From NCBI RefSeq assembly GCF_000620125.1, contig NZ_JHVL01000035.1, forward strand, positions 1 through 40,508: a stretch of 40,508 nt of DNA, in the 5' to 3' direction. Under the pieces are notes generated by a model. The model ran no database searches. It was not told the origin of the DNA and saw nothing but the letters and a program-made list of their open reading frames with translations. The translations under genes were made by a program, and so were the position numbers. Below, one piece after another: positions 36,576 through 40,170 of the stretch (the stretch's first letter is position 1; every line of letters starts with the position of its first letter). The stretch is from Clostridiisalibacter paucivorans DSM 22131. Its GTDB lineage: Bacteria; Bacillota; Clostridia; Tissierellales; Clostridiisalibacteraceae.

Positions 36576-37739
36576 TTATTTCTTTACTCCTCCTATATTG
36601 GCCTTTTTATTAAATAGGTCTACATCATAGGAATACATATTATCATTCTTTTCTCCATGGGCGTCTTCAGCTATATCTATAAGTTCAGTTATCATATCCT
36701 TAAATGTTATGCCCATAGGTTCCCACAAATAAAATGCAACTGAACCAGGTAAGGTATTTATTTCATTTACAAAAATATTATCATTTTCATCTATTAAGAA
36801 ATCTATTCTGGCATTACCTCTACAGTCTAATGAATTAAATGCCCTTTTAGCAAAATTTTGTATATCCTCTGTCATCTTATCAGATAACTCTGCTGGTATA
36901 ACCCTCTTTTGACCCTTTCCACCTTTTACATCGCTATTGATATATTTATCTTCATATGAAAGTAAATCCTTCCAGCCCAAAGGTTCTTCACAGAAAGATG
37001 CCTTTAACTCATCATCCTTACCCATCACTGCACAATTTATTTCTCTGGGATTAACAACAGCATTTTCCACTAAAATCTTTCTATCATATCTTATAGCTAC
37101 CTCTATAGCATCTATAAGCTTATCTACATCTGTGGCTTTAGTTATGCCTACACTGGAACCTAAATTTGCGGGTTTTACAAATACAGGATATTCAAGTTTG
37201 TCTTCTACATCTTTAATAATTGTATCTCTATCTTTTATCCATTTCTTCCTATAAAACCAAATATGATCAACAATAGGTAGGGCTTCCGCTTTAAAAACTG
37301 ACTTCATAATAATTTTATCCATACCTACAGCCGATGACATAACTCCTGCCCCCACATATGGTACATTTATAAGTTCTAATATTCCCTGTATAGTTCCATC
37401 TTCTCCATTTGTTCCATGCATTGCAGGAAAAATCACATCAATACTATCCAATACCTTTTTAGAAAACATTCCTATTTTATTGGGATGATTATATAGATTT
37501 TTATCATCATGGGTAGCAGTTATTACTATTTCCTTTGTATTGCCAAATTCTTTATTTTTGAAAGTATCAAATTTCTTTAATTCTTCTCCAGTATACCACT
37601 TTCCTTTTTTATCTATATATATAGGCACAGGTTCATATTTAGTCTTATCCATATTTTCCATTACCTGGAGGCCAGTTATCACTGACACCTCATGCTCAAC
37701 AGTCCTACCTCCAAACAATACACCTACCCTTTTTTTCAT
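36576..37739 (-). CDS. ddl: D-alanine--D-alanine ligase
   Basis: This 387-residue ATP-grasp ligase makes the D-Ala-D-Ala dipeptide for peptidoglycan. LFGGRTVEHEVSVITG is the N-terminal D-Ala site, PAMHGTNGEDGTIQGILEL the next family motif, VKPANLGSSVGI the ATP-binding loop, and NEINTLPGS the magnesium site. The omega-loop reads SYEDKY with Tyr, as in D-Ala-D-Ala enzymes, not the VanA D-lactate type. It starts 14 bp after the MurF-like gene, whose product would use its dipeptide. AAGGAGG precedes the ATG. The length is at the long end for the family because of a longer C-terminal tail. Confidence 0.95.
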   Translation of the reverse strand: MKKRVGVLFGGRTVEHEVSVITGLQVMENMDKTKYEPVPIYIDKKGKWYTGEELKKFDTFKNKEFGNTKEIVITATHDDKNLYNHPNKIGMFSKKVLDSIDVIFPAMHGTNGEDGTIQGILELINVPYVGAGVMSSAVGMDKIIMKSVFKAEALPIVDHIWFYRKKWIKDRDTIIKDVEDKLEYPVFVKPANLGSSVGITKATDVDKLIDAIEVAIRYDRKILVENAVVNPREINCAVMGKDDELKASFCEEPLGWKDLLSYEDKYINSDVKGGKGQKRVIPAELSDKMTEDIQNFAKRAFNSLDCRGNARIDFLIDENDNIFVNEINTLPGSVAFYLWEPMGITFKDMITELIDIAEDAHGEKNDNMYSYDVDLFNKKANIGGVKK

Positions 37740-37753
37740 ACAAAAAATCCTCC

Positions 37754-39391
37754 TTATTCATTATAATTATCGGGTAAATCATTTTCAAATAATACTACAT
37801 CTTTCTCTTTTACTAAACTCTGAATAACTCCAGTGGATTCATCCAGTGTCTTTACAACAAATATATTGTCCTTATTAAACTTTTGTTCAACAAGACCTTG
37901 GTATATTGGCCTAGTTCTCTTTTCACCAACTAGTATTACGAAATCACAAACCTTACTTATATTCTTGCCAAATTCCTTATTTTCCTCTTCTTCTCTGTCT
38001 CCTAATTCCACCATACCTGGAGTAACTATAACCTTTCTTCCTTCTTTAAATTGATTTAAAACCTCTAACGCTGCCTTGGCACCCACAGGATTAGAATTAA
38101 AAGCATCATCTATAATAATCACACCTGTACCTGGATTGATTAATTGTAGTCTATGAGGAATAGGCTCTACCTTAGATATCCCCTTAGATATATCATCTAA
38201 ATTCATTCCCATTGCATTGGCCACTGCTACCCCTGCCAATATATTGGATATATTGTGCTTGCCTAACAATTTGCTACTACACTTTACACTATTACCTTCT
38301 TTATCTGACAATATAAAAGTAGAGCCGCCCTCATTAACTTCTATATCTTTAGCATATATATCTAAATATTCATGGTCTTTTATACCATATAATATCTTTT
38401 CTTTAAAAGTCTTATCTGCTAATTTCCTTACATATTTATTATCATAATTGAATATTGCTATACCATCAGCAGGTAGATTCTCTATCAGTTCATATTTAGT
38501 TTTCATTATGTTTTCTATGTTTTTAAATGTCTCTAGATGGGTAGGTCCTATGGAAGTAAGTACACCTATTTTAGGTCCTACAAGTTTAGCTAATTCATCT
38601 ATATCACCTATATTCCTAGCTCCCATCTCTACTACAAAGGCCTCATAACTATCATCAAGGGTATTATTTATAACTTTACTTATACCCATAGGGGTATTAT
38701 AGCTTTCTGGTGTGTTTAATACATTATATTTATGCCTTAATATTTCAGCAGTGATAAATTTGGTAGATGTCTTGCCAAAACTACCAGTAATACCAACTAT
38801 ATTCATATTTTCAAAGTTTCTTACTTTATTATATGCCATATCATAATAATATTTATTTATTCTTTTTTCTATGGGTAATACTAGTAAATTGGCTAATATT
38901 ATAGTCTGAGGAATACCATAAATTATAAGTAATGAACCTATTAATATAAGATCAAAGGGTCTATCACTAAAATTTATGACAACTAATCCATATATCAGCA
39001 TAATAATTAAATTTATTGCTATAATAGCTATAAATAATCTTTTAGCCCTTTTAGTAAATACTAAGTCCTTTTTAGCGTTTTTACTTTTAAAATCTTCCAC
39101 TAATAAAAAACAAAATAGTAAGAACAACAATATCATTGGTAATAAAAGTATCTTAGAATCTATTAGTATAACTATTATCTCTAATAAGAATAACGCAATG
39201 GCACTATTCCTTACCTTATTTGAAAATACATTTTTACCAGATTCCTTTAGCCACCTTTTATATTGATTATTTCTGTATCCCTCCAATTGCATCATATGTA
39301 ATGTATATCTTGATGTCCAATACATAGGTATTAACCATATAACAAATAATATAGCTCCTATAATCCCTAAATTATTTAAAATGATATCCAT
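37754..39391 (-). CDS. Membrane-anchored MurF-like Mur ligase
   Basis: The first 180 residues of this 545-residue protein are mostly hydrophobic, with about five membrane segments (near 8-22, 62-78, 80-98, 118-140 and 147-172). The Mur ligase ATP domain follows, with GITGSFGKTSTK (200-211), VEMGARNIGDIDEL and the Mur C-terminal domain (DDAFNSNPVGAKAAL, TPGMVELGDREEE). These motifs are those of MurF, which joins D-Ala-D-Ala to UDP-MurNAc-tripeptide. The normal MurF N-terminal substrate domain is missing and the membrane region takes its place. It lies between an alpha/beta hydrolase gene and ddl in one operon. It may be the main MurF or a specialised membrane form. Confidence 0.85.
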   Translation of the reverse strand: MDIILNNLGIIGAILFVIWLIPMYWTSRYTLHMMQLEGYRNNQYKRWLKESGKNVFSNKVRNSAIALFLLEIIVILIDSKILLLPMILLFLLFCFLLVEDFKSKNAKKDLVFTKRAKRLFIAIIAINLIIMLIYGLVVINFSDRPFDLILIGSLLIIYGIPQTIILANLLVLPIEKRINKYYYDMAYNKVRNFENMNIVGITGSFGKTSTKFITAEILRHKYNVLNTPESYNTPMGISKVINNTLDDSYEAFVVEMGARNIGDIDELAKLVGPKIGVLTSIGPTHLETFKNIENIMKTKYELIENLPADGIAIFNYDNKYVRKLADKTFKEKILYGIKDHEYLDIYAKDIEVNEGGSTFILSDKEGNSVKCSSKLLGKHNISNILAGVAVANAMGMNLDDISKGISKVEPIPHRLQLINPGTGVIIIDDAFNSNPVGAKAALEVLNQFKEGRKVIVTPGMVELGDREEEENKEFGKNISKVCDFVILVGEKRTRPIYQGLVEQKFNKDNIFVVKTLDESTGVIQSLVKEKDVVLFENDLPDNYNE

Positions 39392-39402
39392 TTTTCACTC
39401 TC

Positions 39403-40170
39403 CTAACTACTACTATCCAAAAAACTATCTATAACCCTATTAAATGTATACATCTGGTCTATATAAGAATAATGCCCTGCATTATCCAATACTACTAGAC
39501 CGCTACCCTCTATTTCATTTTCCATTATTTTTCCCATATAAAGTGGAGTAGCATCATCATCCCTTCCCCATACTAATAATGTTGGTACATTTATATTTTT
39601 TAAATATGGTCTTAAGTTTTCATTTATTACTTTAACCATTATTTTTCTCATAATTCCATCGGCCGCTCTATAATCCTGTGAGCCATATCTCTTATAAAAC
39701 TTCTCTAATCTCTTATCCTTTTCCTTCCAAAAAAATAATAGATTATATATTCCCTTCATTATTTTAAATGTATATACTTTAAGATAATATTTAGGTTTCC
39801 TCTTTGGAATTATACCTGCACTGTCTATAAGTACCATTTTGCTTAAAATATCTGGATATTTATTGGCTAACATTATAGATACCCTGCCCCCGTGGGAGTG
39901 ACCCATAAGTATTATATCCTTAATATTCAATTTATCTACAAATTTTTTTATAAAGTCAGCATATTCTTCAGAACCCCATACAGTTAGAGGTCTATCACTT
40001 TGACCAAATCCTGGTAAATCCAATGCCCATACCTTATACCTATCTTTAATATGATTATATATAGGTATAACTGTATCTATATTTGCCCCCCATCCATGAA
40101 GAATAAGGACATTTTCTCCTTCACCTTCACATATGTAATTAATCCTTAATCCATCTATATCTATATGCAT
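39403..40170 (-). CDS. Alpha/beta hydrolase
   Basis: This 255-residue alpha/beta-fold hydrolase has HGWG as the oxyanion region, the nucleophile Ser92 in GHSHGG, an acid near Asp204-206 in WGRDDDATP, and His233 in NAGHYSY. These make a full catalytic triad. No signal peptide is present, so it is cytoplasmic. The substrate is unknown. It is the first gene of an operon with the MurF-like ligase (12-bp gap) and ddl, which suggests a link with cell-wall precursor metabolism. GTGAGGATGG precedes the ATG. A promoter is not clear in the 200-bp AT-rich gap upstream. Confidence 0.85.
   Translation of the reverse strand: MHIDIDGLRINYICEGEGENVLILHGWGANIDTVIPIYNHIKDRYKVWALDLPGFGQSDRPLTVWGSEEYADFIKKFVDKLNIKDIILMGHSHGGRVSIMLANKYPDILSKMVLIDSAGIIPKRKPKYYLKVYTFKIMKGIYNLLFFWKEKDKRLEKFYKRYGSQDYRAADGIMRKIMVKVINENLRPYLKNINVPTLLVWGRDDDATPLYMGKIMENEIEGSGLVVLDNAGHYSYIDQMYTFNRVIDSFLDSSS

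Follow-up and report, generated by a model that had tools for sequence, protein, structure and literature searches.

Textbooks place the addition of D-Ala-D-Ala to the bacterial cell wall precursor in the cytosol and assign it to a soluble enzyme. To our knowledge, this enzyme, MurF, is regarded as universal, soluble and UDP-dependent, as catalysing an essential step, and as a drug target. In Clostridiisalibacter paucivorans DSM 22131, a gene adjoining ddl encodes a MurF-like ligase that carries membrane helices in place of its substrate-binding domain, which raises the questions of whether this protein (membrane MurF, TM-MurF) is the MurF of the cell and, if so, on which acceptor it works. 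Here, we discuss this gene on the basis of the window, i.e., the whole stretch of 40,508 nucleotides that was analysed (contig NZ_JHVL01000035.1), the genome, and related genomes from several phyla. The features of the locus are collected in Table 1.

Table 1. Coordinates of the membrane MurF gene, its domains and motifs, and its two partner genes in the window.
Feature	Position	Strand	Characteristics
alpha/beta serine hydrolase	39403..40170	(-)	255 aa; first gene of the unit; triad S92 / D205 / H233
membrane MurF (TM-MurF)	37754..39391	(-)	545 aa; five-helix membrane domain, Mur ATP domain and Mur C-terminal domain
N-terminal membrane domain	38807..39391	(-)	residues 1-195; predicted N-out, C-in; two conserved loops and exit helix predicted cytosolic
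motif 1	39251..39298	(-)	residues 32-47, H-M-x-Q-L-E-G-Y...W; Q35 and Y39 invariant in 92 sequences; H32 in 88/92
motif 2	39035..39073	(-)	residues 107-119, K-K-x-L-V-x-T-x-R-A-K-R-L; T113 and R118 invariant; K107 and R115 in 91/92
motif 3	38825..38875	(-)	residues 173-189, P-x-E-x-x-I-N-x-x-Y-x-x-x-A-x-x-K; helix from membrane into ATP domain; E175 and A186 invariant
Mur ligase central (ATP) domain	38219..38791	(-)	residues 201-391; P-loop GITGSFGKTSTK, E255, H285, K299 (expected carbamylated lysine)
Mur ligase C-terminal domain	37787..38155	(-)	residues 413-535; MurF-like DDAFNSNP motif
ddl	36576..37739	(-)	distinct subtype: shortened second-alanine loop (PGSVAFYLWE), longer omega loop, C-terminal tail

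The gene, which is preceded by a ribosome-binding site (AGGAG, 39404-39400) overlapping the stop codon of the upstream gene, encodes a member of the Mur ligase superfamily, given that Mur_ligase_M (PF08245; 160.9 bits, gathering cut-off 24) and Mur_ligase_C (PF02875; 56 bits, gathering cut-off 28.4) both score above their Pfam gathering thresholds. Ahead of Mur_ligase_M, no Pfam domain was found above threshold, and the UDP-binding N-domain family PF01225 was unmatched. The classical MurF subfamily (TIGR01143) is characterised by a full-length score and an N-terminal UDP-MurNAc-binding domain; membrane MurF has neither, scoring 256.9 bits against a cut-off of 288.6 and aligning only with model positions 63-403, so that pipelines relying on TIGR01143 would not call it MurF. 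Five hydrophobic helices are predicted in its first ~195 residues. An AlphaFold model built from 92 relatives, confident throughout (pLDDT 92.6, pTM 0.89), concurs with helices at residues 2-36, 58-76, 80-98, 114-141 and 145-191, i.e., a helical membrane domain located where the UDP-binding N-domain would stand. The initial annotation of this DNA had described a MurF-like ligase with intact ATP and C-terminal Mur domains, in which about five membrane helices replace the UDP domain; domain scores and model bear out this description, and the model contains no normal UDP-binding domain. The architecture recurs in 92 relatives, the alignment of which has 37 invariant columns (six within the membrane domain), and is well past chance.

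The membrane domain is conserved in a peculiar manner. Its successive loops carry mean net charges of +1.8, 0, +5.2, 0 and +1.9 across the 92 relatives, which places both conserved loops, together with the Mur domains, on the cytosolic side. The residues Q35, Y39, T113, R118, E175 and A186 are invariant in these sequences from several phyla, and H32, L36, K107, R115 and P173 are nearly so; all are confined to the predicted cytosolic loops or the exit helix, while the helices themselves are variable. Helices 2-3 are even missing from 15 of the 92 relatives, the motif residues still being kept. Such conserved residues at the cytosolic face would be superfluous in a plain anchor, but would be required if a pyrophosphate-sugar head group were bound at the membrane surface. 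No consistent Pfam family emerged for the membrane domains of the 92 members (UbiA in three members, best E 0.016; otherwise scattered one-member matches), and there was no significant match in a PDB profile search (best E 0.65), with Foldseek (best E 1.6, dolichyl-phosphate-mannose synthase) or with VIA-align (Z at most 4.7). Thus, we claim no relative for this domain, although a weak relation may exist.

Whether the genome also holds a second, ordinary murF is a question raised already by the initial annotation, and the answer is that none was found in the assembly, which is 3.25 Mb in size, 99.2% complete and 0.09% contaminated. Its six Mur_ligase_M proteins are MurE, MurD, MurC, FolC, a MurE-like paralogue and membrane MurF, which leaves the latter as the only MurF of the cell, with no hidden classical copy among the Mur ligases of this assembly. 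A split UDP-binding domain encoded elsewhere was likewise rejected, PF01225 being confined to MurC, MurE and the MurE paralogue. According to gene names assigned by inspecting the translations, the dcw cluster reads mraW-ftsL-pbp-murE-mraY-murD-ftsW-murG-murA, with no murF between murE and mraY. The ddl adjoining membrane MurF is also the sole D-Ala-D-Ala ligase gene of the genome. The MurE-like paralogue (484 aa; contig C82, locus L015, 8195-9649) possesses an N-domain and has folC and a single-strand-binding-like gene in its vicinity; in a tree of the Mur domains, it groups with MurE.

In this tree, membrane MurF forms one clade (support 100/99) that is sister to classical MurF, both joining at 100/98 apart from MurE, MurD and MurC. 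This position makes it a MurF-type enzyme outside the classical MurF subfamily and without the N-domain of that subfamily. The nearest solved structures, by sequence and fold, are likewise MurF enzymes (3zl8, 4cvk, 4qf5, 1gg4), with a VIA match to 3zl8 of Z 39.4 and rmsd 3.9 over 372 residues. With these enzymes, membrane MurF shares the central and C-terminal Mur domains, the catalytic motifs, the ddl linkage and, judged by exclusion, the genomic role; it differs in the membrane domain that stands in for the UDP-MurNAc-binding N-domain, in its separate clade, and in its linkage with a serine hydrolase and another Ddl subtype. From its sequence, it can thus be described as a MurF-type ATP-dependent ligase without a UDP-MurNAc-binding domain and as the sole MurF of the genome.

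A second point of reference is MurT of the GatD/MurT lipid II amidase, a Mur ligase that equally lacks the UDP-binding N-domain and has lipid II as its substrate at the membrane (Noeldeke et al. 2018, PMC6113224). In that study, it was argued that a UDP domain in MurT would collide with the membrane and that the junction between the N- and central domains harbours the pyrophosphate; in membrane MurF, this junction is located at the membrane surface. MurT, however, is no integral membrane protein, contains a zinc ribbon and partners with GatD, whereas membrane MurF has Mur_ligase_C (PF02875), a Ddl partner and a greater closeness to MurF. Accordingly, membrane MurF reaches only 36.2 bits with the MurT model NF052464 (cut-off 800), its central domain (residues 201-391) contains a single cysteine, C371, and no four-cysteine zinc ribbon, and no GatD gene adjoins it, the neighbours being the alpha/beta hydrolase gene and ddl.

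These neighbours form a three-gene unit with membrane MurF. The ddl linkage stated in the initial annotation is confirmed, ddl following after a gap of 14 bases with its ribosome-binding site overlapping the stop codon; the alpha/beta hydrolase gene of the same unit, located 11 bases upstream of membrane MurF, had gone unmentioned there. The order hydrolase–membrane MurF–ddl on a single strand is kept in 33 of 34 genomes of the order and, in a scan of named genomes, in 76 of the best 80 matching loci, one of the four exceptions being a contig end.

The Ddl of the unit is distinct from those found beside classical MurF. Its short second-alanine loop (EINTxPGSxxFYLWE, with the core PGSxxFYLWE) is present in 92 of 105 partner Ddls and in none of 19 Ddls adjoining classical MurF, 16 of which carry PGFTxxSMxPxLW instead. 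Comparison of the 105 partner loci further revealed a longer omega loop and a C-terminal tail of ~25-40 residues with a YSY[DE]xNLF-like motif; the tail is absent in Ddls beside classical MurF and could serve as a tether or dock onto membrane MurF. An altered specificity of this Ddl is possible. Among NCBIfam models, it matches D-Ala-D-Ala ligases best and not Van types, and it retains the omega-loop tyrosine region as well as most Ddl motifs. The classical ddl-murF pair, including VanG-like pairs, resembles the unit in the adjacency of both genes and the same presumed chemistry, but has no hydrolase, a soluble MurF, the canonical Ddl loop and no Ddl tail; it replaces the membrane unit or coexists with it. 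A VanG-type resistance cluster was considered as an explanation of the unit and rejected, the unit Ddl fitting D-Ala-D-Ala ligase models and the VanG-like ligase pairing with the classical MurF of one relative. In genome G030 (locus L102, 4935-7362), the gene beside classical murF encodes a VanG-like D-Ala-D-Ser ligase, which scores 473 bits against a model cut-off of 495; genomes of this kind may use the membrane unit for housekeeping and classical MurF as part of a van-like cluster.

The serine hydrolase with its intact triad is a nearly constant first gene of the unit across phyla, S92 being retained in 75, D205 in 74 and H233 in 73 of 75 sequences. Its nearest solved structures are generic esterases and lipases only, from which no specific role could be gained; housekeeping of a precursor or lipid belonging to the membrane MurF step would be our guess.

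The membrane MurF clade is present in Bacillota, Poribacteria, Nitrospirota and Planctomycetota, and usually occurs where classical MurF does not. In a class-wide sample—an even draw of 243 genomes, each at least 95% complete, with classical MurF counted if above the cut-off—classical MurF was found in 203 and membrane MurF in 35 genomes, resulting in 202 classical-only and 34 membrane-only genomes and a single one with both. The Gracilibacillus family (Bacilli) comprises 56 classical-only and 4 membrane-only genomes and none with both. Among 35 named genomes carrying membrane MurF, 32 are devoid of classical MurF above the cut-off, including Peptoniphilus, Butyrivibrio proteoclasticus, Diplocloster agilis, Gracilibacillus, Poribacteria MAGs and Scalindua, the last with a partial classical match on a different contig; some genomes without classical MurF consist of a single contig. 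Essential genes with such a pattern of mutual exclusion can usually stand in for each other. The order-level sample of 41 genomes, as read from the match table, contains 22 membrane-only, 7 classical-only and 12 genomes with both forms; hence, membrane MurF need not be the sole route everywhere. In three Poribacteria loci (L130, L136, L142) and one Nitrospirota locus (L159), the unit sits between murE and mraY, i.e., in the canonical murF slot of the dcw cluster. Exclusion counts and murE-[unit]-mraY order together show that membrane MurF fills the place of MurF in genome and gene cluster. What the initial annotation had not foreseen is that membrane MurF replaces classical MurF widely, the two excluding each other, and does so as part of a three-gene unit.

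Individual genomes illustrate this replacement in both directions. In the single-contig complete genome G006 (L084, 2263-6166), the classical pair is ruined, with ddl split over two frames and murF both frameshifted and disrupted by the insertion of an ORF, while the membrane unit is undamaged. Genome G008 (L083, 4968-6629) keeps classical MurF, and its membrane MurF, which is without hydrolase and ddl neighbours and has lost several conserved residues, is probably a decaying copy. In family f23 (L212, L213; genomes of 0.8-1.2 Mb), a shortened membrane MurF of ~470-490 aa is the only MurF.

Membrane MurF, hence, very probably does the job of MurF. In all likelihood, the neighbouring Ddl makes D-Ala-D-Ala, which membrane MurF would join to the stem tripeptide. 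Regarding the acceptor, we infer with moderate confidence a lipid-linked MurNAc-tripeptide, i.e., lipid I or lipid II. We prefer this acceptor because the whole clade is devoid of the UDP domain, because invariant residues are located at the cytosolic face of the membrane, and because MurT sets a precedent. It is the best-supported, if unproven, mechanism, based on that precedent and on the restriction of invariant polar residues of the membrane domain to this face. We therefore lean slightly towards the reading that membrane MurF is an integral membrane version of the cell's MurF, which adds D-Ala-D-Ala to lipid-linked MurNAc-tripeptide. MraY would transfer UDP-MurNAc-tripeptide to the lipid carrier; the Ddl of the unit would supply D-Ala-D-Ala; the invariant H/Q/Y, K/T/R/R and E residues would hold the undecaprenyl-pyrophosphate head on the cytosolic side of the membrane, in the place that UDP would take in classical MurF; and membrane MurF would add the dipeptide to the tripeptide of lipid I or lipid II, so that the pentapeptide would be finished at the membrane. 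We see an even chance that a large and patchily distributed set of bacteria proceeds in this manner, with a dedicated Ddl, the conserved tail of which may dock on membrane MurF, and a dedicated serine hydrolase, the cassette moving between phyla and displacing murF. The lipid-linked acceptor and the altered order of steps had been suggested in the initial annotation; loss of the UDP domain, membrane-face residues and MurT fit this suggestion, whereas MraY gives no sign either way. Between 27 membrane-form-only and 31 classical-only genomes, MraY shows no switch at a conserved site, and nine within-family contrasts differ at variable positions only. A MraY that takes the tripeptide might be expected to look different, which counts against the lipid-linked acceptor, as does the slot between murE and mraY, which also suits an enzyme working at the UDP level.

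These two points, the position in four dcw clusters and the unremarkable MraY, favour the main alternative, in which the cell's MurF still uses UDP-MurNAc-tripeptide, with conserved cytosolic loops binding UDP or MurNAc. The membrane domain would merely set the enzyme beside MraY to hand on its product, the Ddl tail would perhaps keep Ddl close, and the order of steps would be unchanged. Free swapping of classical and membrane forms would be easiest with an identical substrate. Nevertheless, an entire UDP-binding domain is missing clade-wide, Pfam and the PDB sequence and fold searches detected no nucleotide-binding-like fold in its place, and MurT, the one well-studied Mur-type ligase without a UDP domain, uses lipid II (PMC6113224). 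We consider this alternative the less probable of the two.

It appears very improbable that membrane MurF is no peptidoglycan MurF and instead attaches D-amino acids to a different polymer, lipid-linked or of the envelope, with the true MurF outside the assembly or represented by another Mur ligase. The MurE-like ligase on contig C82 offers a candidate for the latter, but it groups with MurE; the near-complete assembly, the recurrent absence of classical MurF in dozens of genomes, some single-contig, the murein-cluster position of the unit in relatives, and the closeness of membrane MurF to MurF by sequence, fold and tree all speak against this option. Since the second-alanine loop of the unit Ddl is remodelled, the dipeptide D-Ala-D-Ala is itself something we infer, and the loop contrast with Ddls beside classical MurF would suit a unit that installs another C-terminal dipeptide, with Ddl making and membrane MurF adding D-Ala-D-X. 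Against this equally far-fetched option stand the retained omega-loop tyrosine region and Ddl motifs, and the NCBIfam assignments. Peptoniphilus and other cultured carriers are susceptible to vancomycin, as would be expected of D-Ala-D-Ala termini.

In the open-access literature, to which our search was largely confined, subscription journals being mostly outside its coverage, we found no description of a membrane or transmembrane MurF, of genomes without murF, or of this gene unit, many matches concerning the muscle protein MuRF instead. A Mur ligase phylogeny study (PMC11915815) describes a three-domain scheme for Mur ligases, with no membrane MurF mentioned in its accessible parts. Given the genomes with a single form and the one with a broken classical copy, the question of the acceptor is directly testable. 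Many bacteria, including Peptoniphilus, Butyrivibrio and other anaerobes, depend on a membrane enzyme of another architecture, which the standard MurF model scores below its cut-off. If its acceptor is lipid-linked, the textbook order of cell wall assembly would not be universal, and inhibitors of the MurF UDP site would miss these species.
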